A stretch of 64,000 bases of DNA from Actinomycetes bacterium (GTDB taxonomy: Bacteria > Actinomycetota > Acidimicrobiia > Acidimicrobiales > Acidimicrobiaceae). The DNA lies in the NCBI GenBank assembly GCA_021786375.1, contig JAJYNL010000077.1, forward strand, positions 1 through 64,000. The letters run 5' to 3'. Below the pieces are notes generated by a model that saw only the letters and a program-made list of their open reading frames with translations, was not told where the DNA came from and searched no databases. Positions 5,093 through 19,518 of the stretch are shown here, in pieces (position 1 is the first letter of the stretch; each line of letters begins with the position of its first letter). A program made the position numbers and the translations under genes.

Positions 5093-6037
5093 ATGTCTGC
5101 TGATCAAGCTCGCAACCATGCCGGACACTCCGAATTCGAGGTGCTCGCACGCTTCTTCGAGCGCGCCGGCTCATCCGGACCGGGTGTTTTGGTCGGCCTT
5201 GGCGACGATGCCGCCGTGGTCAGCATCGGTGAACAGCGAGTGGCGCTATGTGCCGATGCCCTCGTCGACGGAGTCCACTTCGACCTCGCCTACTTCTCCG
5301 TGGCGGACCTTGCCGCCAAAGCGATCGCCGTCAATGCCTCCGATATCGCTGCCATGGGCGCGATTCCCAGGTACTATCTCTCCACCATCGCTTCCCGCGG
5401 CAACCTGGACGTGGAGGAGATCTTGGTGGTCATGGCCGAAGAGGCCCGCTCCCACGGGGCGCTTCTGGTCGGTGGGGACCTGGTAAGTTCAGGCGAGCTC
5501 AATGTTTCGGTTTCCGCGGTCGGCGTTTTTGAGGCCGGCTCGGCCGTCCTTCGCCGGTCCGGGGTACGTGCCGGAGATGCACTCCTGGTCACCGGCCCTC
5601 TTGGCGCTTCGGCCCGCGGCCTGCGTGGACTGCGCCAAGGGGACCAATCGCTGAGTGTCGCCGCCCGTGAGGCCCATCTACGGCCGCGCCCCCAGCTCAC
5701 AGCGGGCCAACTCGCCGCCAGACTTCAGGCGCACGCCGCGATCGATGTTTCCGACGGCTTGCTGGCGGACCTGGAGCACATGCTTGTCGCGAGCGGCGTC
5801 GGAGCAGAACTAGGGGAGATTCCGCGCTTCGAAGGTGCGACGCCGGAGGAGGCTCTCTACGGCGGCGAGGACTACCAGCTCATCATCGCCACCGACAAGC
5901 CGGCAGAGCTTGCCTCCGCCTTCCAGGGTGAGGGTCTTCCCCGGCCTTTCGTCATCGGCAGGGCCGTGCCGGCTCCCTCGGTCCGCCTACTGGAGGGACA
6001 CCCTTATCGACCCGGCGGCTACACGCATCGGCTCTAA
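5093..6037 (+). CDS. thiL: thiamine-monophosphate kinase
   Basis: 314 residues of the PurM/ThiL-like ATP-binding family. It phosphorylates thiamine monophosphate to thiamine diphosphate, the last step of the cofactor's synthesis. Diagnostic features are GLGDDAAV near residue 36, the DALVDGVHF stretch, KAIAVNASDIAAMGA, the central VTGPLG segment and the C-terminal DVSDGLLADL and ALYGGEDYQL motifs, all of which belong to ThiL. It stands alone, diverging from pckG and convergent with the dehydratase gene, with no other thiamine genes nearby. The start has only a weak ribosome binding site. Confidence 0.95.
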   Translation: MSADQARNHAGHSEFEVLARFFERAGSSGPGVLVGLGDDAAVVSIGEQRVALCADALVDGVHFDLAYFSVADLAAKAIAVNASDIAAMGAIPRYYLSTIASRGNLDVEEILVVMAEEARSHGALLVGGDLVSSGELNVSVSAVGVFEAGSAVLRRSGVRAGDALLVTGPLGASARGLRGLRQGDQSLSVAAREAHLRPRPQLTAGQLAARLQAHAAIDVSDGLLADLEHMLVASGVGAELGEIPRFEGATPEEALYGGEDYQLIIATDKPAELASAFQGEGLPRPFVIGRAVPAPSVRLLEGHPYRPGGYTHRL

Positions 6038-6049
6038 GACTTTGGCTGC

Positions 6050-6952
6050 TCAGCCGGCCAAGGTGGCCGACGCCGTCATGCAGAGGTCGCCCTGGCAAGT
6101 GATCTCGATGTCGACCACCGAATCACGCTGCTGCCTGGCATGTATCTCGGCCTCCTGGCCCTCGAAGATCGGTGACCGGGCACGGAACTCGAAGGCACTC
6201 ACCTTCTCCAGCCCAACCCCCAGCAATGACTCGAGCGCAGCCGAAGCGAGCAGCGGTCCATGGACCACCAGTCCCGGGTATCCCTCGAAGTGCTGGCAGT
6301 AGGAGCGGTCATAGTGGATCTTGTGCGGATTCCCGGTCAGGGCGGAGTAGGTGAAAAGCATTGGTGACAAAGCCCGCAACCTGCCGTCACGCGCGAAGCC
6401 ACCGGCATCTGTGGTTTCGCGCGCCTCGAAGGTGAGCGAGCCCGCCTCGCCGTCGAGGGCGGGCAGTTCGAAGGGACGATAGGTGGCGGGCGGCGGATCG
6501 AAGAAAACCAGTGACTGCTCCTCGACGCGCGCCAGCTCGCCGTGCTGGCTGATGCGATGCTCGAGGGTGACGAAGACAAGGTCGCCGGAGCGTCCCGACT
6601 TCTGCTCCACCTTGGTACAAATGGTGACCTTCTCCGCGGGCGAGCCGACTGCCAACGGAGCCAGGAGTTTCACGCCACCGCCCGCGTACATGCGGCGCCT
6701 CGCGGGAACCGGCGGAACCACGCTCGCCTCCCCGCGCCGAAGGTGGCCATCGGGGCCGAGTTCGCCCGGCTTGTAGGCGCGGTGAAAATAGACCCAATGC
6801 CAAACAGCAGGAAGATCCCCAAGCTCCTCGTCCGTCGCCTCACGGCCGAGAAGCGCCGCCAGCGCCATCGCACTCTCCGGCGCCATCGACTCGCTCGAGC
6901 GCTCCTCGCGCCCGATATATTCCGCATACCGCGCCCCTTGCGTACCAGTCAT
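6050..6952 (-). CDS. FAS1-like hotdog dehydratase / acyl-CoA hydratase
   Basis: 300 residues with two hotdog-fold halves. The N-terminal half (LPAVWHWVYFHRAY... RRMYAGG) matches the FAS1-like dehydratase domain. The C-terminal half has FTYSALTGNPHKIHYD near residue 205 and GLVVHGPLLA, the catalytic segment seen in mesaconyl-C4-CoA hydratase and fungal-type HTD2 proteins. It probably hydrates or dehydrates a CoA ester, but the substrate cannot be read from the sequence. The start has GGAGG six bases before the ATG. It is a single gene, convergent with thiL. Confidence 0.85.
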   Translation of the reverse strand: MTGTQGARYAEYIGREERSSESMAPESAMALAALLGREATDEELGDLPAVWHWVYFHRAYKPGELGPDGHLRRGEASVVPPVPARRRMYAGGGVKLLAPLAVGSPAEKVTICTKVEQKSGRSGDLVFVTLEHRISQHGELARVEEQSLVFFDPPPATYRPFELPALDGEAGSLTFEARETTDAGGFARDGRLRALSPMLFTYSALTGNPHKIHYDRSYCQHFEGYPGLVVHGPLLASAALESLLGVGLEKVSAFEFRARSPIFEGQEAEIHARQQRDSVVDIEITCQGDLCMTASATLAG

Positions 6953-7073
6953 TGCGAACCTCCATGAGCTGGTTAGATACTACGCCCGGCCGGGCGGCGG
7001 TGCCATGCCGTTCCATCCTCGGCGAACGCCTCTATGCTTGGTCCGTACCTTAGATAGACGGGGAATCACGCCA

Positions 7074-7325
7074 TTGATTAGCGCTTTCGTGCTCATCCAG
7101 ACCGAGGTGGGAAGCATCTCAGAGGTTGCGCAGAACCTGCGCGGCACCCCGGGGGTCGACTTCGCCGACGAGGTGACCGGTCCCTACGATATCGTCTGCC
7201 GGGTGCACGCTGACGACCTTATCTCCTTGGGCGACAGCGTCACGGCGGCAATTCAGCGCATCGAGGGCGTAACCCGCACGCTCACCTGCCCGGTTACCCG
7301 CAACATCTCGCTCGCCGACCTCTAG
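7074..7325 (+). CDS. stand-alone Lrp/AsnC ligand-binding (RAM) protein
   Basis: 83 residues from a TTG start at 7074, chosen because the RAM domain begins exactly there (ISAFVLIQTEVGSISEVA) and a purine-rich ACGGGGA lies about ten bases upstream. An ATG at 7005 is possible but would add 23 residues unlike the family. The protein is a single alpha-beta sandwich as found at the C-terminus of Lrp/AsnC regulators, with GPYDIVCRVHADD and the VTRTLTCPVT end. It has no DNA-binding helix-turn-helix. Such free RAM proteins bind amino acids or partner with Lrp proteins. Confidence 0.85.
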   Translation: MISAFVLIQTEVGSISEVAQNLRGTPGVDFADEVTGPYDIVCRVHADDLISLGDSVTAAIQRIEGVTRTLTCPVTRNISLADL

Positions 7326-7343
7326 TTGGGTTCACTCGGTGGA

Positions 7344-7713
7344 TTAGAGGCCGCGACGAAGGCGTTCACCCCCAAGGCCCGCGATGAACAGCCCTCCAAG
7401 GTTTTCGCGCCGATACAGGCTCCCCGCCATCTGATCCCGCCAGGCGCCAAGAAATCCTGAGCCCCCGACCGGAACGAAGCCGCAGAAGGGGTGGAAGGCG
7501 GCCGGCGACAGGCGCTCCGGGCCCACCAAATCGATACCCATGGCAACCCGGACATAGATTGCCGCTTGGGCGAAGAGGATCAACCACCGGAGCGGACGTG
7601 CGCATCCGGCAATGGCGAATCGCGGCCAACGACCGGATGCCGGCCACGCCGTAGGCCGTGATCACAAGCCACGCCCGGGCGGCGTGAAAGTCCGCCGGCG
7701 ACACATGGAGCAC
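7344..7713 (-). pseudogene. frameshifted small membrane protein downstream of the TraG-like gene
   Basis: Coding character switches frame here. From a GTG at 7713, with GAGAGG ten bases upstream, one frame reads LHVSPADFHAARAWLVITAYGVAG. After about base 7640 the coherent reading is in another frame (RPLRWLILFAQAAIYVRVAM, then GIDLVGPERLSPAAFHPFCG) and runs to TAA at 7344. Together they would give about 120 residues with two membrane segments. The frame change could be a real mutation or a sequencing or assembly error. An alternative is a shorter intact ORF from TTG at 7583. No family is recognised. Confidence 0.45.
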
Positions 7714-7729
7714 CCACCCGGCCAACCTC

Positions 7730-9010
7730 TCAGCCGCGCCCGATCCCTTGCCACCCGGTGCGGCCCAGTCCTGGTCCTGCCACTGCGATGCGCGCAAAGC
7801 CCTGGCGCGCATTGAACAATAGAGCCTCCCCGGGGCGCCCTCTCGCCAGCTCGCCCGGGGATAGCAGAGGCCGCAGCTGCCCCGATCTGGAGCGCGGAGC
7901 GGGACCGGCGAGCGAGCGGCGGGCCCCCACGCCGGGCAGCATAACCAGCCGCTCGCCGGAGAGCAATGAGAGCTCCGCCAGCGTACGCCGGTCCGCAATG
8001 CCCGGGAAAACCAGCGTGTTCTGGAACAGGGTCAGCATCCCGTCCGAAAGGCCCGGCCAGCGATGACGCGCCTGGCTGAGGTCCTGCAACACGCCGAGCA
8101 CCAGCACTCCCTGGGAGGCCCCCTCGGAGAGAATCCCGCCGAGATCGTGCAGGGGGGCGATATTGGCCATCTCGTCCAGCAAAAGCTTCACGGCAGGCAC
8201 CGGCCGCGCCGAGCCGCCTCCGGCAACGCGTACGTTCGCCTGGGAATAGGCCGCCTGCCTCACACCGGCGATCAGCCCGGCGACGACGGGCGACAGGAGG
8301 TCCTGGACTGTGGACGGGGCCACTACGTAGAGCGTGTCGGTGGAAGCCGCGAAGGCGGTGGCGTCGAAATTGGGGGAAGCGCTGTCGGCCAGCACCTCCG
8401 GCATGCGGTAGGCCGAAAGCAGCCCCGCCGCTGTCGAAAGCACACCGGAACGCTCCCTCTCGGACGACGCCACCACGGCCGAGAGCGCACTCGCGGCCTC
8501 CCTCTCCCCCTTTGCCGCCAGCATCGCCACGGCGGATTCGAGCTCCCGGCCCTCCACCATCTCCATCACTTCCGGCATTCCCAGACCTCCCAGACGGGCG
8601 GCCAGGAGGCAGGGTGCCAGCACCGCTTCCGCGCGTTCCTCCCAGAACGAGAGCGCGTGTCCGGCGTGGACAGTCGAGGATCGGACCATAGCTCTGGCCA
8701 GCAGCATGGCACCCTTGAAATCGACGGCCTCGCCCACCGGCGAGAAGCGCAGTTGCGTCGCCCAGCCGGGCACCGGTGTGCTGCCGGATGGGTCGAAGAC
8801 CCATACCCGGCCGTGACGGGAACGCTCCTTTGCCGTGCGAGCCATAATGTCGACCTTGGTACTGGTCACCACCGTCGCCTGCTCGGAGGCGAGCAGGTTG
8901 GGCACAACCAGCGCCGTGGTCTTGCCACAGCGCGGCGGACCCAGCACCAACAAGTGCGACTCGCCGTCCAGATGAACCGGGCCACCTCGGCCTCTGCCCA
9001 GGTAGAACAA
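7730..9010 (-). CDS. VirD4/TraG-like conjugative coupling ATPase, soluble form
   Basis: 426 residues of the TraG/VirD4/TraM-recognition group of DNA-pumping ATPases. Walker A is GPPRCGKT near residue 25. A degenerate Walker B region, VKLLLDEMANIAPL, lies near residue 270 and is followed by the GVLVLGVLQDLSQARHRW segment typical of the TraM-recognition domain. Normal coupling proteins have N-terminal membrane helices; this one begins right at the nucleotide-binding domain. The start is TTG with a very strong GGGGAGGAGGGG ribosome binding site. No relaxase, VirB4 or pilus genes are in the window. The operon partner just downstream is broken. Confidence 0.8.
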   Translation of the reverse strand: MFYLGRGRGGPVHLDGESHLLVLGPPRCGKTTALVVPNLLASEQATVVTSTKVDIMARTAKERSRHGRVWVFDPSGSTPVPGWATQLRFSPVGEAVDFKGAMLLARAMVRSSTVHAGHALSFWEERAEAVLAPCLLAARLGGLGMPEVMEMVEGRELESAVAMLAAKGEREAASALSAVVASSERERSGVLSTAAGLLSAYRMPEVLADSASPNFDATAFAASTDTLYVVAPSTVQDLLSPVVAGLIAGVRQAAYSQANVRVAGGGSARPVPAVKLLLDEMANIAPLHDLGGILSEGASQGVLVLGVLQDLSQARHRWPGLSDGMLTLFQNTLVFPGIADRRTLAELSLLSGERLVMLPGVGARRSLAGPAPRSRSGQLRPLLSPGELARGRPGEALLFNARQGFARIAVAGPGLGRTGWQGIGRG

Positions 9011-9089
9011 ATCCCCTCCTCCCCTTGCCTACGGGAGTCGGGCCGGCTGGAGCCGGCGATCAGGCGAGCGGCGAGCGGCGGCTAAAGCA

Positions 9090-10538
9090 TCATGCGAGCG
9101 AAGCGATGGCGGTCTCGTCCGGCTCGACCTGCTGTCGCTGGGCCTCTGCCGGCACGGTCCCGCGGGCCAGCAGCCAGTAGGTCACCCCCGACACGATCAG
9201 GCCGGCAAAGATGGAGAAGTCGGCGCCGTTGGTGGCGTTGGAGACCACGCTGACATAGTGGGGATAGGCGTCCAAGGTGAGCATCGCGGCCACCATGCCC
9301 AGGATCTGGGCGATCACGCCGGGCCAATGAATGCCGTTCTTCCGATAGTAGAGGGATCCTTTGGTCCGCTGGAGATCGATCGCGGAGTAGCGCTTGCCCC
9401 TGAGCAACCAGTCGACCAGATAGACCGCCGTCCAGGGCGCCACCCAGACGATGATGAAGAGAATGAACTCGCTGAGCAGGGTATTGAACGATGCGGAGAA
9501 TATCGCATAGGAAGTCAGGCCGGTAACGATCACCGTGTCAAGCACGACGGCCTGCCAGCGCGAAATCTTGAGGCCCAGCGCCTGCAGGGTCACCCCCGAT
9601 GAATACAGGTCGAGGCTGTTGATGGCGAAGAGCTGGACAATGGCAACGATCAGATAGGGCCAAATGAACCAGGGCGAAAAGTGGGTGGCGATTCCGGTGA
9701 TGGACCCCGAATCGGAGCCGACGAATGTGGCAACCGCGGCACCGAGGGTCATCAGCAGCACCGAGGGAATGAAGGTCCCCAGGAAGACCCAGCCCACCGT
9801 GGCCTTGCCCGAGGTATGGCGAGGCAGGTAGCGGGAATAGTCGTTGCCGTTCTCCGTCCATCCAAGGCCGGAGGCGGAGATGATGAAGGCCAGGCCCTCG
9901 AGCATGGTCTGCCAGTTCGCACCATGGTGCACCGAGTGGACGTTAACATGCCCAACCGCAAGGAAGGCGAAGATCACGAAGAGAATGATGAACGGGATCA
10001 CGAGCACCCGCATTGCCTTGAGTATCGCCGCGTGGCCGAGGAGGGGAAGCAGCAACTGGATCAGCGCCGCCAGCAGGATTAGGCCGACCTTCAAGCCGGT
10101 CGAGCTGTGCAAACCCACCTTGGAAGAAAGCGCGAGTCCGGCGATCACCACCAGTGCCAGGCCCTCGGTTTCGAAACCCACCTGTGTCAGCCAGTTGAAT
10201 ACCGCGATCAGTTTGGAACCGTGAGGGCCGAATGATGCCCGATTGATGGTGAAAGTGGTTGTTCCCGCCTCCGGACCCTGCAAGCTGGTGAGTCCGAGCA
10301 ACGCGTATGAGAGGTTGCCGACGATGATAATAAAGACCGCCTGGGCGAAGGACAATCCGAAAGTCATCAGGATCGCGCCGTAGACCAGGATCTCCACATT
10401 GAAGATGGCGCCGCCCCACATCCAGAAGAGGTTGACCGGCTTCGCCCAGCGCTCCCGGCTTGGCACGTAGTCGATTCCACGTCGCTCGATGCCGGAAGGC
10501 CCAGCCTCCGCAATCGGTATCTCGAACACTTCCTTCAC
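9090..10538 (-). CDS. NCS1-family permease (cytosine/purine/allantoin type)
   Basis: 482 residues with about twelve membrane segments. The N-terminus IERRGIDYVPSRERWAKPVNLFWMW and the following WGGAIFN segment, plus SFGPHGSK and GWTENGNDYSRYLPR, are typical of the NCS1 transporters that import cytosine, uracil, purines, allantoin or hydantoins with sodium or protons. The substrate cannot be decided. The start is GTG with GAGGGAG seven bases upstream. No nucleobase catabolic genes lie next to it, so its role is open. It diverges from the GGDEF gene across a long intergenic region. Confidence 0.9.
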   Translation of the reverse strand: MKEVFEIPIAEAGPSGIERRGIDYVPSRERWAKPVNLFWMWGGAIFNVEILVYGAILMTFGLSFAQAVFIIIVGNLSYALLGLTSLQGPEAGTTTFTINRASFGPHGSKLIAVFNWLTQVGFETEGLALVVIAGLALSSKVGLHSSTGLKVGLILLAALIQLLLPLLGHAAILKAMRVLVIPFIILFVIFAFLAVGHVNVHSVHHGANWQTMLEGLAFIISASGLGWTENGNDYSRYLPRHTSGKATVGWVFLGTFIPSVLLMTLGAAVATFVGSDSGSITGIATHFSPWFIWPYLIVAIVQLFAINSLDLYSSGVTLQALGLKISRWQAVVLDTVIVTGLTSYAIFSASFNTLLSEFILFIIVWVAPWTAVYLVDWLLRGKRYSAIDLQRTKGSLYYRKNGIHWPGVIAQILGMVAAMLTLDAYPHYVSVVSNATNGADFSIFAGLIVSGVTYWLLARGTVPAEAQRQQVEPDETAIASLA

Positions 10539-10927: not shown

Positions 10928-11968
10928 GTGATTGACAACACAGCGGCCAAGCCCGGAAGTCGCTATCGCATGAGTCCGCCGGGGTCTTTGAACACGGCCG
11001 CTACCTCGCGTATCCGCGCACTCTTCTCCGATCCGAGCCCGGCAGCCATCACCCTCGAGGTAATCGCCGCTTGCGCCATTGCCTCGGTCTTGCCGCTCCG
11101 CCACTGGCCGAGGTCCGCGCTCATAACCCTTGTCACCGCCCTCGCCGTGGTCCTGGCCAACGCCTGCGTGCGAGTCGTGATCGGCAAGCGCCTGCCACGC
11201 TGGAGCGTGCAAGTGGACGTCACGCTTGGCAACCTCTTCGTCAGTGCCATAGCCGCGGCCGGGGCTAGTGCCCACGTAGACCTGGCCAACCTCTACCTCC
11301 TCCTCGAGGTCTTCGCCCTCCTATACCTGCCCTTGCGTTCGGCACTCTGCCACCTCGGTGCCGCCGGGATCGCCTACGCGATCGTCCTTTCGATCGGGCC
11401 TCCAACCGGCGAAGCGCCGATCATTTCCTGGCTTTCGGTTTTCGGTACAGCCATCGCCCTCGGTGCAGTCGTGATCGGCCTGGTGAGCGTCCTGCGCAAT
11501 GTCGCGCGAGAAGACCCCCTGACTGGACTTGCCAACCGTCGCATGTGGGACGAGCGCTTCGAAGAGGAGATGGAACGCTCGGCACGGAGTGGCGCTGCGC
11601 TGTCCATCATCATGGTCGATATTGACAGCTTCAAGGCGGTAAATGACGCCGGGGGCCACGAGGCGGGCGACCGCCTGCTCCAAGAGATCGCCCGGGCCTG
11701 GGAGGGGGTCGTACGTGACGGCGGGGATTTCCTCGCGCGTCTAGGCGGCGACGAGTTCGGACTTCTCGCATCGGGGTGCGACGAGATCGGTGCCCAGGCG
11801 CTCGCCGGGCGCCTCGCCCGCTCTCTGCCTCAGGGTACTTCGGCCTCAATTGGCGCCGCTACCTGGGACCGGAGCGAAAACGCCTCTGATCTTCTGCGCC
11901 GAGCAGACCGGGCCATGTACCGGAGTAAGCGAAACCACCGGCGCGGCACCGGCCCCAGCGCGGCGTGA
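10928..11968 (+). CDS. membrane-bound GGDEF diguanylate cyclase
   Basis: 346 residues. The N-terminal 190 residues contain about five or six hydrophobic helices (residues 40-190), probably a membrane sensor. The C-terminal half is a GGDEF domain: DPLTGLANRRMWDERF, then IIMVDIDSFKAVND with the metal Asp, then RLGGDEFGLL near residue 272. The intact GGDEF motif predicts synthesis of c-di-GMP from two GTP. The usual inhibitory RxxD site five residues before GGDEF is replaced by DGGD, so product inhibition may be absent. The start is GTG with GGGAGG seven bases upstream. The structured leader RNA in front may control expression. Confidence 0.92.
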   Translation: MIDNTAAKPGSRYRMSPPGSLNTAATSRIRALFSDPSPAAITLEVIAACAIASVLPLRHWPRSALITLVTALAVVLANACVRVVIGKRLPRWSVQVDVTLGNLFVSAIAAAGASAHVDLANLYLLLEVFALLYLPLRSALCHLGAAGIAYAIVLSIGPPTGEAPIISWLSVFGTAIALGAVVIGLVSVLRNVAREDPLTGLANRRMWDERFEEEMERSARSGAALSIIMVDIDSFKAVNDAGGHEAGDRLLQEIARAWEGVVRDGGDFLARLGGDEFGLLASGCDEIGAQALAGRLARSLPQGTSASIGAATWDRSENASDLLRRADRAMYRSKRNHRRGTGPSAA

Positions 11969-12279: not shown

Positions 12280-13425
12280 TCAGTCCAGCCCGATCATCTT
12301 CAGCACCGCACCGCGGTGTTCGTCCGGATACGGAGGGGCGCTGGGGGCGGTGGGGCGCCGGCCGTCGAAGAGCGGCCCCGGCGCCGGCTGGGCAACGCCG
12401 TCGAGCTCGATGAACGCCGAGCGCGCCAGGTTATGGGGATGGGACATGGCCTCCGCAGGGCTGTAGACGGCAAATGCGCAGGCATCAAGCCCATCAAACA
12501 ACTTCTCGAAGTGTGAGACCGGCGCCGCGGCGAAGATCGAAGCCAGGCGCTCACGCATCTCGGGCCAGGTGGAGCGTTCGTTTTGGTTGGAAAAGGCCCA
12601 CTCGCCCTCCACCTCGAGCCTGGCCACCATTGCCGCATAAAACTGCGGCTCGAGAGCCGCAACGGCGAAGTAGCCTCCGTCGGCGCAGCGATAGAGCGAG
12701 TAGAAGGGCGCTCCGCCGTCGAGCAGGTTGCTACCGCGCTCGTCCGTCCAGGAACCGGTGCTGCGCATCCCGAAAATCATCGAGGCCAGCGTTGCCGCCC
12801 CTTCCGACATGGCAGCGTCGATGACGCACCCACTACCGCCGGCGCGTACCGACACCAGCGCCGCCGAGATTGCAAAGGCCATGTACATCCCCCCTCCGCC
12901 GAAATCCCCCACCAGATTCAGTGGAATGATCGGCGGCCCGCCCGCCGGACCGATCATCGACAGAACCCCGGACAGGGAGATGTAGTTCAGGTCGTGCCCG
13001 GCACGGGGTGCCAGCGGCCCGGTCTGACCCCAGCCGGTCATGCGTGCATAGACCAGAGCGGGGTTGATACCATGGGCCTCCACCGGGCCTAGTCCGAGAC
13101 GCTCCATCACTCCGGGCCGGAAACCTTCGAGCAACACATCCGCTTTGGCGATCAGCGCCTCCACCACCCCGCGTGCGGAAGGATCCTTGAGATCGAGCGC
13201 GATGGAAAGCTTTGACCGGCCCATTACGTCACCGCGGTAGGCGCGGAGCACAGCCTCGGAAGGGGCTTCGCTCCAAGGACCCGGCCGGTCGACACGGATA
13301 ACCGTCGCGCCGAGATCGGCAAGAAGCATGCCACAGAATGGCCCGGGCCCGATTCCGGCAAACTCCACGACCGTGACTCCGGCCAGAGGCGCCGGTCCAC
13401 CTCCGTCGTCTTGCTTCGGCTGCAT
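12280..13425 (-). CDS. CaiB/BaiF-type CoA transferase (alpha-methylacyl-CoA racemase-like)
   Basis: 381 residues of the class III CoA-transferase family. Landmarks are LAGVTVVEFAGIGPGPFCGMLLADLGATVIRVD at the N-terminus, DLKDPSARGVVEALIAKADVLLEGFRPGVMERLGLG near residue 100, and the GHDLNYISLSG segment with the catalytic Asp region. The GPGPFCGM wording and the GHDLNY motif favour alpha-methylacyl-CoA racemase, which epimerises 2-methylacyl-CoA esters in branched fatty-acid or sterol side-chain breakdown, but transfer of CoA between acids is also possible. The start has AAGGAGGGG upstream of the ATG. It is a single gene. Confidence 0.9.
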   Translation of the reverse strand: MQPKQDDGGGPAPLAGVTVVEFAGIGPGPFCGMLLADLGATVIRVDRPGPWSEAPSEAVLRAYRGDVMGRSKLSIALDLKDPSARGVVEALIAKADVLLEGFRPGVMERLGLGPVEAHGINPALVYARMTGWGQTGPLAPRAGHDLNYISLSGVLSMIGPAGGPPIIPLNLVGDFGGGGMYMAFAISAALVSVRAGGSGCVIDAAMSEGAATLASMIFGMRSTGSWTDERGSNLLDGGAPFYSLYRCADGGYFAVAALEPQFYAAMVARLEVEGEWAFSNQNERSTWPEMRERLASIFAAAPVSHFEKLFDGLDACAFAVYSPAEAMSHPHNLARSAFIELDGVAQPAPGPLFDGRRPTAPSAPPYPDEHRGAVLKMIGLD

Positions 13426-16233: not shown

Positions 16234-16959
16234 CTAAAAGCCCACCGGGACCCATGGCAGCGGGGAGGCGCAGGCGCAAGCCACCTCGATCTCCGATCGC
16301 ATGCTTCCGGCCGACGGGTGCAGCATCCCCGGTGTCCAGTCGGGGCTGGAAGAGAGAACCACCCTGCCTTGCGCGTTAATCAGGGCGAGCGGGCGCGCCA
16401 TCTTGCACATCCTTGGCAGCACCCGCTCCTCCAAGCCGGAGACAACCAGGTCGGACCCGGCCACGGCAACGATGCTCCCGTCCAAGGTCACCGGCAGCGA
16501 CAGTGTCACCGCGTATTCGTTGGTGCACTCGTAGTCGACGTAGGGTCCGGTTACGTGCCTTACTCCGGAGTTGACCGGGATTCGATACCACTCGGCACTG
16601 AGGTAGTCGTAGTGATCGGGGACCTCAGGATCAAGGTTCACCCGCAGGGCCTCAGGAGCGGACGAGGCGCGCCACCACCACCATTCGATCCAGCGAGGAG
16701 CGTCCGCCAGCACCCCTGGTACGAAGATGACCCCCGCGCCTTTCACCAGGGCTCCGTGCTGCTGTAGCAGGCCGGTGATACCTGGTCGGAGTGCCGTAAG
16801 ATCCTCGCGCACCGCCGCGCCCCGTGCGCTCACGGCGGCTCCCGCCAGCAAGGAGCCGAGCTCCTCGCCGAGGTCGCCTATCGCGACGAAGACCAACTCG
16901 ACTTCCTCGGCCACCTCTCCCAGTAGATCCTCGTACAGCTCTGGAAGCAGAATCACCAT
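16234..16959 (-). CDS. soluble Cache/PDC sensor-domain protein
   Basis: 241 residues with the hallmarks of a Cache (PDC) ligand-binding domain: HYDYLSAEWYRIPVNSG near residue 140, GPYVDYECTNEYAVTLSLPV, and DGSIVAVAGSDLVV, the usual second half of the domain. There is no signal peptide and no membrane helix, which is unusual because Cache domains are normally outside the membrane in receptors. Its ATG overlaps the stop of the upstream FadR-type regulator by one base (TGATG), so they are translated together. I infer a cytosolic ligand sensor that works with that regulator. The start has GAGGGGG just upstream. Confidence 0.75.
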   Translation of the reverse strand: MVILLPELYEDLLGEVAEEVELVFVAIGDLGEELGSLLAGAAVSARGAAVREDLTALRPGITGLLQQHGALVKGAGVIFVPGVLADAPRWIEWWWWRASSAPEALRVNLDPEVPDHYDYLSAEWYRIPVNSGVRHVTGPYVDYECTNEYAVTLSLPVTLDGSIVAVAGSDLVVSGLEERVLPRMCKMARPLALINAQGRVVLSSSPDWTPGMLHPSAGSMRSEIEVACACASPLPWVPVGF

Positions 16960-17750
16960 CAGCCCCCTCGACCCGGGGCAGGAAGGAGGCGGTACAGCTG
17001 CAGGCGCAGCTCGGCCAAGCGGCGAGTATCGAATTCGACGCCCCGCTCGGCCAGCTCAGCGGCGACGGCGGGATTCCTGGTGATGATCGCCTCGAGCATT
17101 CCGGCGCGAATACTCCAGGCGTGCTGCTGGGCTCCTTCGTTGAGGTCGAGCCAGAGGAGATCGCCGATCTCGGCACGCAGCCTCAGCTCCTCCACTGCAA
17201 GCCGCGGCGATTGCGCGGCCGCAGCCACCGCCAGGCTGAATTCGGCGTCGGCGCGGCGCAGTTCGCTGACGCTGACCGCCTGACGAAAGCGCTCGAGACG
17301 CTGGGACAGTCCCTCCAACTCGCCCTCCACGGCCCGATTGGCGGCCAGCTTGGCGGCCATACCGGCCACCGCACTTCGATGGTCTCCCAGGTCGCGCAAG
17401 GCTTCGACGGAGAATTCCTTGAGGCGCGCGTAGAGGCCCGCCACCTGATCGCGCGGCGCGGTGACGAAGTTCCCTCCCCTTCGCCCGCGTCGTGTTTCGA
17501 TCATCCCCCGCTCGCGTAACAACGCAAGCGCCTCGCGCAGGGTCACGGTCGCGACGCCCATCTGCTCCGCGAGAGTCACCTCGGTCGGTAACCGCTCCCC
17601 GTCGAGCAGGAGTCCAAGGCGGATCGCCTCGCTGAGGCGTCGCACGGCCATCTCCACCCGTCCGGCCGAGTCGTCGTCCGGCGAAAAGATGACCCTTGCC
17701 GCGGCAGTAGTCAGGCCTAGGCTGCTGGGAGGTCTCCTTGTCGTGGCCAA
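16959..17750 (-). CDS. FadR-subfamily GntR transcriptional regulator
   Basis: 263 residues. The N-terminal winged helix is typical of GntR (ERLPTEVTLAEQMGVATVTLREALALLRERGMIETRRGRRGG, residues about 53-95). It is followed by an all-helical FCD ligand domain with the expected acidic and His positions in the DLGDHRSAVAGMAAKLAA and ADAEFSLAVAAAAQSPRL segments. The TTG start has AGGAG six bases before it. It diverges from the APC permease gene and overlaps the Cache-protein gene, so it probably represses the permease and its own operon until the substrate binds. Confidence 0.9.
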   Translation of the reverse strand: MATTRRPPSSLGLTTAAARVIFSPDDDSAGRVEMAVRRLSEAIRLGLLLDGERLPTEVTLAEQMGVATVTLREALALLRERGMIETRRGRRGGNFVTAPRDQVAGLYARLKEFSVEALRDLGDHRSAVAGMAAKLAANRAVEGELEGLSQRLERFRQAVSVSELRRADAEFSLAVAAAAQSPRLAVEELRLRAEIGDLLWLDLNEGAQQHAWSIRAGMLEAIITRNPAVAAELAERGVEFDTRRLAELRLQLYRLLPAPGRGG

Positions 17751-17833
17751 CCTGGACTCCTCGATCCTTTTTCGCTACACCGACATTGGCCCTCGTAGCG
17801 GCCCCATCGAAAATAGCAGCCCGAAACTCAATA

Positions 17834-17861
17834 TTGTGACTGAGGGCACGAAACCTATGAA
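17834..17861 (+). promoter_or_regulatory. possible promoter of the APC permease
   Basis: TTGTGA (17834-17839) and TATGAA (17856-17861) are separated by 16 bases, in an AT-richer part of the divergent region 55 bases before the permease start. This is a sequence match only. Confidence 0.3.
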
Positions 17862-17916
17862 TTCCGATGTTATATTTCCCTCCAGACTCTTGTCACAACA
17901 CGACCCTGGAGGGACA

Positions 17917-19518
17917 ATGGCCGATAATGGCAATGGAGTTCCTGCCGTCTTCCATGACGAAGACAAAAGGCTGGAAAGTCTGGGGTATAAACCCCAGCTC
18001 AACCGAGTACTTGGCTTCTTCGCAAACTTCGCAGTCGCCTTCACCTACCTGTCGCCAATGGTCGGCATCTACTCGCTCTTCGTCCTGGGAGTCGGCACCG
18101 GAGGTCCCGCCTATGTGTGGCTGACATGGCTTCCCGTCGCCGGCATGCTATTGGTGGCGCTGATCTTCGGAGAGCTGGCCAGCCACTATCCGGTCGCCGG
18201 CGCTCTTTATCAGTACTCGAAATTCTCGGTAGGTCCCGCCTATGGCTGGTTCGTCGGCTGGTTCTACGGTATCGCGCTCCTGGTTACCGTCGCCGCGGTT
18301 GACACCGGGATCGTGGGGTATGTGACCGCACTGCTGCAGAACTTGTTCGGCTGGAAGCTAAATCCCTCCGGCCACCTGGTGATCCTCGTGGTCACACTGG
18401 TTCTTCTCGGCATCCAGACCATTCTCAACATCACCGGAGCAAGGGTGATGGGCAATGTCGCGAAGTTCGGCGTTTGGGTGGAGCTGGTGGGCACCGTGGG
18501 TGTCGCCATCATTCTCGCCATCAACGGCTTCCACCACGGCTTCAGCTTCCTCTTCACCACCCAGGGCGTCGAGCACGTCAAGACCAACCCGTTGGGCCTC
18601 AACTTCAACGGCCACTGGCTGACCGGAGCGGCTCTTATCGCGGTGCTCGCACCTGTCTATATCTTCTACGGCTTCGAATCCGCCGGCGATATCTCCGAAG
18701 AGACCAAGGACGCCGGGCGCCAGGTACCCCGCGCCATGCGACATGCCCTGCTCTGGGGAGGGGTCGCCTCCTTCGTCCTAACCATGGCCCTTTTGCTGGC
18801 CATGCCAGTCCACAACCCGATCGGAGCCACGGTCAGCGGCGGTGGCGTGCCCTTTATCCTGGGCCAGCTGCCTTCCGGGTTGCAGGACCTGCTTCTGCTC
18901 TTGATCATCTTCGCCTTCTTCTCTTGCGGGACATCGGTGCAAGGCGCCGGAGCGCGGCTCGCCTTCTCCTACGCCCGCGATGGCGCCGTTCCCGGCGCAG
19001 GCTGGATCTCCAAAGTGAGCGCGCGCCACAAGGCGCCGGTGAACGCCCTGCTCGCCGGTACCGCGGTGACGATCATCTTCATCCTCTTCGAGTTCATCCA
19101 GCCGACGCACAACATCCACCTCGGATTTATCACCTACCCGGCCAACACCAACGTCCTGGTTTCGCTGATCTCCTTCGGTGTGAGCGGAATCTATCTCTCC
19201 TTCCTGATGACGGTCATCGCGGCCGCCATTGCCAGGGCGCGAGGTTGGATCCCCGAAGGGCGCTTCCGCCTTGGCAAGTGGGCATGGGTGGTGAATATCG
19301 TCGCGATTCTCTATCTCGGCCTCATGTTCATCAATGTGGTGCTCCCCACCGGCCTGACCAGCCCTCGCGGCTACTTCAACCTGGACTGGATTACTCTCCT
19401 GGTGATTGCGGTCATCTTCTTGGTTGGTGCCCTCTACTTCTTCAGCACCCGTCCCGATCGCGGCGTGGCACGCCACCTGCACGACACCCTTGAGCCGACG
19501 GGCGCCGAGCTCGAGTAA
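17917..19518 (+). CDS. APC-superfamily amino acid/amine permease
   Basis: 533 residues from the ATG at 17917, which has GGAGGG just upstream (CTGGAGGGACA). The open frame extends further upstream but that part lies inside the divergent regulator gene. There are about twelve membrane helices. N-terminal features are KPQLNRVLGFFANFAVAFTYLSPMVGIYSLF and GELASHYPVAGALYQYS, the helix-1 and helix-3 regions of amino acid/choline/GABA-type permeases. YGFESAGDISEET is the helix-6 loop. The substrate is probably an amino acid or amine. Control by the divergent FadR regulator is likely, and transcription ends at a strong hairpin. Confidence 0.92.
   Translation: MADNGNGVPAVFHDEDKRLESLGYKPQLNRVLGFFANFAVAFTYLSPMVGIYSLFVLGVGTGGPAYVWLTWLPVAGMLLVALIFGELASHYPVAGALYQYSKFSVGPAYGWFVGWFYGIALLVTVAAVDTGIVGYVTALLQNLFGWKLNPSGHLVILVVTLVLLGIQTILNITGARVMGNVAKFGVWVELVGTVGVAIILAINGFHHGFSFLFTTQGVEHVKTNPLGLNFNGHWLTGAALIAVLAPVYIFYGFESAGDISEETKDAGRQVPRAMRHALLWGGVASFVLTMALLLAMPVHNPIGATVSGGGVPFILGQLPSGLQDLLLLLIIFAFFSCGTSVQGAGARLAFSYARDGAVPGAGWISKVSARHKAPVNALLAGTAVTIIFILFEFIQPTHNIHLGFITYPANTNVLVSLISFGVSGIYLSFLMTVIAAAIARARGWIPEGRFRLGKWAWVVNIVAILYLGLMFINVVLPTGLTSPRGYFNLDWITLLVIAVIFLVGALYFFSTRPDRGVARHLHDTLEPTGAELE

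Follow-up and report, generated by a model that had tools for sequence, protein, structure and literature searches.

What does a Cache domain, a module treated as a sensor of the outside, do when it is made as a separate protein from a gene lying directly behind that of a FadR-type regulator? The question is raised by one locus within the window (the whole stretch of DNA that was analysed, 64,000 nucleotides). FadR-type regulators form a very large class in which the sensing of effectors is assigned to the FCD domain. For this locus an original prediction, made from the DNA letters, proposed a two-protein cytosolic sensor controlling a divergent permease. Its coordinates and reading frames for the Cache, regulator and permease genes were correct; the span given, 16234-17916, ends short of the permease and includes a palindrome at 17852-17871.

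Genes and signals of the locus

The features are the following.

16234-16959, minus strand: open reading frame (ORF) of the Cache protein, 241 amino acids, ATG start (PF22673; AlphaFold2 model, folding like the Cache domains of amine receptors)
16834-16941, minus strand: codons for residues 7-42 of the Cache protein, which form its N-terminal helix (DSSP on the model)
16957-16961, minus strand: TGATG junction, in which the stop of the regulator and the start of the Cache gene have one base in common (read in the sequence)
16959-17750, minus strand: GntR/FCD regulator of the FadR subfamily, 263 amino acids, TTG start (PF00392, PF07729)
17852-17871, no strand: operator-like palindrome AACCTATG-AATT-CCGATGTT (matrix trained without the window's genus)
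17867-17896, minus strand: promoter-like site GTGACA-18-TAACAT for the regulator-Cache operon (consensus scan)
17917-19518, plus strand: APC-family permease, 533 amino acids, the presumed target gene (AA_permease_2)

The Cache ORF belongs to the Cache superfamily by its match to MCP-like_PDC_1 (PF22673; 34.6 bits, cut-off 27), and it matches dCache_1 weakly (17.7 bits, cut-off 45). A match to the cobalt transporter CbiM in NCBIfam, 13 bits against a cut-off of 193, was discarded as noise. The regulator carries both domains of the FadR subfamily, GntR (PF00392, 45.8 bits, cut-off 27) and FCD (PF07729, 37.6 bits, cut-off 24.3). The permease ORF scores 144 bits with AA_permease_2, and 215 bits, under the cut-off of 740, with the family named 'permease, urea carboxylase system'. 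Elsewhere in the window, 10928-11968 and 12280-13425 presumably encode, judged by eye, a GGDEF protein and a CoA-transferase-family protein.

On the minus strand the junction of the two genes reads CGAGGGGGCTGATGGTG, base 16959 being common to the stop codon TGA and the start codon ATG, as had been predicted. Directly upstream of TGATG lies GAGGGG, which may serve as a Shine-Dalgarno sequence, and the TTG start of the regulator is preceded by GAGGAG at 7 bases. The translational coupling proposed from this overlap finds its one-base junction in the window, but not as a constant of the family: among 95 loci the gap between regulator and Cache genes varies from -53 to +68, falling between -30 and +40 in 78 of them, and the genes overlap in 20.

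Co-conservation of the Cache and regulator genes

The original prediction had been made to depend on co-conservation in relatives, and the pair is indeed co-conserved in both directions. Matches to the Cache gene occur in 6 of 60 genomes of relatives, and each copy that is not cut by a contig end adjoins a regulator gene. From the 406 relatives that a pattern scan turned up in a collection of named genomes, the top 80 were taken forward as loci. In 77 of these 80 actinobacterial loci (best 80 of 406) the Cache gene is immediately preceded by a GntR gene on the same strand; the regulator of one of them, L097, is cut by the contig end. The three loci without an intact GntR gene are L066, which has a GntR fragment only, and L094 and L101, in which none was found. 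These last two, from Streptomyces (about 5480-5950), still have YdcS and an intact Cache gene, but regulator, PotA and palindrome are all missing, as after one deletion.

A sample of the whole phylum, 396 genomes, contains at least 10 genomes with a match, two of the matches being chemoreceptors. The other eight genomes hold at least 10 full-length Cache-only genes, 10 of 10 with a GntR regulator. These member counts are lower bounds, the best six or seven candidates per genome having been scored. Since Cache-only genes are found in 8 of the 396 genomes and all ten come with a regulator, the Cache family is patchy (at least 8 of 396 genomes) and the pair nearly obligate.

The reverse search, with a regulator profile at 1e-30 against the same 396 genomes, gave at least 52 matches. 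Eleven of them reach 202 bits or more, and ten of these have a Cache gene beside them. Among the 41 matches below 202 bits, 21 were fetched and none adjoins a Cache gene. Linked regulators went into the making of the profile, so the order of the scores is not independent evidence; the sharp split and the tree are. When 28 linked regulators were placed in a tree with 21 unlinked ones, a single branch, supported at 97/97, separated the two sets; shuffled labels require a mean of 16 changes. The distance matrices of the Cache proteins and regulators from 26 loci are correlated at 0.908 (0 of 2000 permutations), a value that shared ancestry alone could yield. Four relatives of the Cache gene are found in plasmid records, all preceded by a regulator gene (three annotated, the one in the Nonomuraea record found by phmmer). 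A scan of viral contigs gave no phage relatives of the Cache gene, and none of the scanned ORFs is a natural fusion of Cache and regulator at an E value of 1e-6 for both profiles.

The eleventh high-scoring regulator, from genome G423 (L154), lies at about 6363-7043 and has an internal stop; a Cache remnant of 59 residues is found at 7320-7496, while Pot operon and palindrome are still in place, so that regulator and Cache appear to have decayed jointly. The genome of the window itself has a second, diverged regulator-Cache pair (L015, contig C72, 5905-7444; gap of 37 bases), which adjoins CCG/4Fe-4S and FAD-oxidase-type genes. About 1.4 kb past this pair, a short ORF at 8874-9407 (= L036) contains decayed regulator and Cache pieces in one frame, with weaker scores, and is a degraded third copy. 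On plasmid pGKT2 of Gordonia sp. KTR9, which we take to be an RDX-degradation plasmid, the pair (L014, 5135-6576) stands beside cytochrome P450 genes and lacks the AACATATG palindrome upstream.

A palindrome upstream of the pair

A 20-bp palindrome, AACATATG-N4-CATATGTT, is present in the upstream regions of 86 of 93 loci, the window's genus having been left out. A matrix trained without the window site was run over the 64-kb window and scores 22.4 bits at 17852-17871, the next non-overlapping place reaching -2.2. The derived pattern, written after the window site was known, has this site as its sole perfect match in the 2.83-Mb genome. In 76 of the 80 linked loci (best 80 of 406) there is a site above 15 bits, always at a distance of 42-234 bases upstream of the regulator's conserved part. 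The four without it are L066, L094, L101 and L097, cut by the contig end, so that every locus with a complete GntR gene carries the site, and it is absent from all 21 loci of Cache-less, unlinked regulators. The palindrome is also found with targets other than the Pot genes, namely the APC permease of the window, L020 and L021 (L021 with a GlcF-like gene) and the glutamine-synthetase-like gene of L149.

A scan for promoter consensus sequences gave 2 sites, against 0.2 in shuffled sequences. One is the putative promoter of the regulator operon, whose second hexamer overlaps the palindrome.

Upstream of the regulator in six of the more distant linked loci (L013, L014, L015, L019, L148 and L152) no strong site was found. 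Beside the second pair of the window's genus there are palindrome-like stretches, AAACTATAG...TAAAGGTT, at L015:8732 and L019:3478 (13.0 and 15.4 bits), possibly a variant of the operator. Between palindrome and regulator, 20 of 77 regions (for example in Actinomadura) have an inverted repeat AGTGA-N10-TCACT, perhaps a second site.

Canonical FadR operators (GT-N3-AC and variants) were tried as the control site and rejected, there being no enrichment in 77 intergenic regions (76 loci and the window); the FadR consensus T.GT...AC.A occurs in none of the 77. GT-N3-AC is the usual operator of the subfamily, with NanR and BioR among the exceptions named in the accessible text of PMC4494728. Since the palindrome is not such a box, footprinting by comparison of the loci is the one line of evidence by which it may be assigned to the linked FadR-type regulator.

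Genes adjoining the pair

An ABC transporter is encoded divergently from the pair at most of the 80 loci (best 80 of 406), with YdcS in 78, PotA in 76, a PotB-like gene in 74 and a PotC-like gene in 73. These names come from NCBIfam and mostly fall under the curated cut-offs: PotA (TIGR01187) lies above its cut-off of 355.6 in L098 (366.2) and below it in L012 (350.3), while YdcS reaches 377 of 725, PotB 128 of 348 and PotC 167 of 326. The Pot/YdcS operon also adjoins distant copies of the pair, in genomes G397, G324 and G270. An APC permease is the neighbour in the window's genus and in G017. A Paenarthrobacter plasmid has an aminobutyraldehyde dehydrogenase gene there (626.6 bits, cut-off 615), and the neighbours in G282 are an enzyme resembling glutamine synthetase III and gamma-glutamylputrescine synthetase, and a PuuC-like dehydrogenase, both below cut-offs. 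GlcD/GlcF-like oxidoreductase genes adjoin the pair in G017, G023 and Georgenia. In the G282 locus (L149, 9075-10543) the palindrome stands directly before the glutamine-synthetase-III/gamma-glutamylputrescine-synthetase-like gene, which takes the place of a transporter gene.

The theme common to these genes is that amines, or nitrogen compounds related to them, are taken up and oxidized; the GlcD/GlcF-like genes fit it less well. The regulator probably controls the uptake of polyamine-like nutrients in soil actinobacteria. Control of the divergent permease, as first proposed, gains indirect support from the gene neighbours in relatives, and the permease is best called a putative target.

Fold and pocket of the Cache protein

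The premise that Cache domains are usually extracellular agrees with the figure in the available part of PMC4822843, where they are described as mainly extracellular, 78% of them confidently so, with two small intracellular families. The protein encoded here was predicted to have no membrane part, and this agrees with the hydropathy of the window protein and of 95 family members. Within the first 45 residues of the window protein the Kyte-Doolittle mean over 19 residues peaks at 1.34, a value of hydropathy only, and in the family the hydropathy of this region exceeds 1.6 in 1 of 95 members. The AlphaFold2 model, a confident one (pLDDT 90.7, pTM 0.88), shows one Cache module, with residues 7-42 forming a free helix at the N-terminus; the counterpart of this helix in membrane receptors extends the first transmembrane helix, according to the same portion of PMC4822843.

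The model, N-terminal helix included, has the Cache fold, with matches up to Z 20.3. At the top stand TlpQ (Z 20.3), McpX (20.2), PctD (19.7) and MkcA (19.5), followed by McpU with putrescine (19.2), CqsR with ethanolamine (18.7) and PacA (18.7). The amino-acid receptors PctC (16.6), PctB (15.5) and PctA (15.3-15.9) come about 3-4 Z below the amine receptors. Among relatives of solved structure, sequence profiles give the opposite order: PctA 47.9 bits, PctC 44.2, TlpQ 36.4 and PctD 33.7.

Pocket residues were mapped by profile alignment with known receptors, and residue statistics were taken over 98 Cache and 95 GntR sequences, 18 of 116 loci having been dropped (second fetches or near-copies of one gene, truncated copies, two chemoreceptors and a remnant). 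W124, Y140, D142, T152 and D170 are invariant in all 98 Cache sequences, and position 125 is aromatic in all 98; D170 and W124 correspond to ligand-contacting residues of PctA and PctD. In the window protein Y117, W124, Y125, Y140 and D170 align with residues of the dCache_1AA motif. Missing from it is the Arg of that motif, R126 of PctA, which in the accessible text of PMC10104139 holds the carboxylate of the ligand: the window has Ala at this position, and the family has Arg in 3 of 98 sequences and Trp in 82. From the dCache_1AM motif, W124, position 125 and D170 supply the aromatic pair and the Asp at the end of the motif (F188, Y189 and D235 of PctD). M215 and S217 of PctD were mapped by hand, to position 150 (Ser in 59 of 98, Val in 26) and to T152 (98 of 98); by this mapping the family does not conserve the hydrophobic residue that the published amine motif has at M215. 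The dCache_1AM motif further comprises W155 and, in an insert over the pocket, the pair R103-D133; W93 and W94, each present in 97 of 98, are candidates for W155 on spacing alone.

Taken at face value, the pocket would suit an amine without an alpha-carboxylate. Of the ligands originally suggested, amines or amino acids, the folds, the missing Arg and the gene neighbours point indirectly to the amine type, while by profile PctA and PctC are the best matches.

Proposed sensing by the regulator or its partner

We consider it reasonably probable that the two proteins form a cytosolic sensor in which an amine or polyamine is bound by the Cache protein, which in turn modulates a FadR-type repressor. 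The repressor, bound to the palindrome at 17852-17871, would control its own operon and the divergent permease, and the Cache protein would be translated from the regulator's transcript by translational coupling. Remaining in the cytosol, it would hold an amine-type ligand (a polyamine, a GABA-like or a related compound) in the pocket that receptors expose outside, and would dock on the FadR dimer, the ligand altering the grip of the dimer on the operator, whatever the sign of the response. Uptake would in this way be matched to the internal level of the substrate. We put at about even the chances of a wider version of this scheme, a split sensor in which a Cache domain, elsewhere an outward-facing receptor module, has come to lie in the cytosol as a stand-alone protein for amines or polyamines and docks on one dedicated clade of FadR-type repressors, and in which pair and operator have been reattached to varied genes of uptake and degradation within the Actinomycetota.

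This part of the original prediction draws support from the co-conservation and from the operator-like palindrome. The docking itself was modelled as a read-through fusion (496 residues; pLDDT 90.1, linker about 68, given without an inter-domain error map), whose pTM of 0.65 gives no confident contact and counts neither way. There is also the FCD domain to consider. Its metal positions read D-S-R-G in the window regulator, not D-H-H-H, and among the linked regulators they read DHHH in 51 of 95 and YHHC in 18 of 95. The available text of PMC7674646 states that the metal-binding Asp and His residues are not required in the subfamily and are absent in E. coli FadR. Decay of the FCD site had been a candidate for the general reason why a Cache partner exists, and was rejected because DHHH is kept in those 51; the idea applies just to the window and to some of the distant members. 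In the window the degenerate DSRG site, as far as residues can tell, favours the Cache protein as the sensor. In the 51 of 95 the FCD domain could still sense, because its metal site is intact, and there both domains may do so.

It is worth asking whether the FCD domain is the sole sensor, the Cache protein having another role in the pathway, such as to bind or buffer amine that has entered the cytosol, or to act on the transporter. We hold this unlikely. The intact DHHH sites and the lack of confident docking in the fusion model would suit it, as would the place of the Cache gene downstream of the regulator, a position also open to a pathway gene. Yet the Cache gene keeps the regulator as its partner while the target varies (Pot/YdcS, APC, GlcD/GlcF-like or glutamine-synthetase-like genes), the window regulator has DSRG in place of the metal site, and in the known settings covered by the accessible part of PMC4822843 the Cache domain is a signalling module.

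More improbable still, in our estimate, is a Cache protein serving as a ligand-independent accessory subunit of the repressor, for its stability or oligomeric state. Gene order, close spacing and the joint decay in G423 suit any obligate partner, but a pure scaffold need not keep five pocket residues in 98 of 98 sequences, two of them (D170 and W124) matching residues that contact the ligand in PctA and PctD.

Little credit is due to a conserved cluster with no functional link, in which the palindrome would belong to another regulator, for example a global nitrogen regulator. The palindrome is unlike the FadR-subfamily consensus, as that is given in the portion of PMC4494728 available, and this much speaks for it. 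Nevertheless, the linkage persists across the Actinomycetota with differing targets, and the palindrome follows the pair rather than the target (the window APC permease, L149, L021) and is absent where the regulator is absent (L066, L094, L101); the matrix correlation of 0.908 (0 of 2000 permutations) is in the same direction, with the reservation that shared descent alone may give it. Export of the Cache protein by a route invisible to hydropathy, so that it senses outside, deserves hardly any credence: most Cache domains are extracellular, 78% confidently by the available text of PMC4822843, but a hydrophobic stretch in the first 45 residues occurs in 1 of 95 family members, the Cache start overlaps the regulator stop, and the protein presumed to be its partner binds DNA in the cytosol.

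Comparison with known systems

A cytosolic Cache protein that senses for a FadR-type regulator would mean that a regulator can leave sensing to a second protein. It would also supply a guess at an amine ligand for a whole clade of unassigned FadR-type regulators, and could explain how polyamine-type uptake is controlled in Streptomyces, Actinomadura and their relatives; all parts of the system are small and soluble. The original prediction knew of no described system of this type, and in the open-access literature (subscription papers being mostly outside this coverage) we found neither a description of a Cache-FadR pair nor an assay of any orthologue. On this coverage the arrangement appears undescribed; it is a form of GntR/FadR regulation in which the likely sensor is a separate Cache protein.

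The E. coli systems YdcSTUV and PotABCD are the best-scoring families for the divergent operon of the relatives (YdcS 377 bits, PotA 350-366), but most of these scores are below cut-offs, which makes the substrate assignment tentative, and the window has an APC permease instead. PlmA-PipX-PII of cyanobacteria, which we take not to be a coupled gene pair, involves another GntR subfamily and a partner whose fold is unrelated to Cache. It is alike in that a GntR-family regulator is contacted by a separate signalling protein (accessible text of PMC5083789), as the Cache protein would contact the regulator here.

One-component regulators of the FadR subfamily, such as DgoR, PdhR and LldR, likewise combine GntR and FCD domains and have divergent transporter genes. 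They sense through their own FCD domain, whereas here there is a separate Cache protein, no GT-N3-AC operator and, in the window, a degenerate metal site. Known intracellular Cache families also lie inside the cell, but as parts of larger proteins (presumably CdaR and YkuI among them) that are not known to have a separate GntR partner. The dCache_1AA receptors PctA and PctC are the best profile matches (PctA 47.9 bits) and their motif residues align, but they have the carboxylate Arg, where the window has Ala and the family Arg in 3 of 98. The dCache_1AM amine receptors (TlpQ, McpX, PctD, McpU and PacA) are alike in the fold of the whole protein (Z 18.7-20.3) and have the aromatic pair and the Asp at the end of the motif in common with it; theirs are extracytoplasmic modules of membrane receptors, whereas the module encoded here is a free cytosolic protein of 241 amino acids in which, on hand mapping, the M215-type position is not kept.
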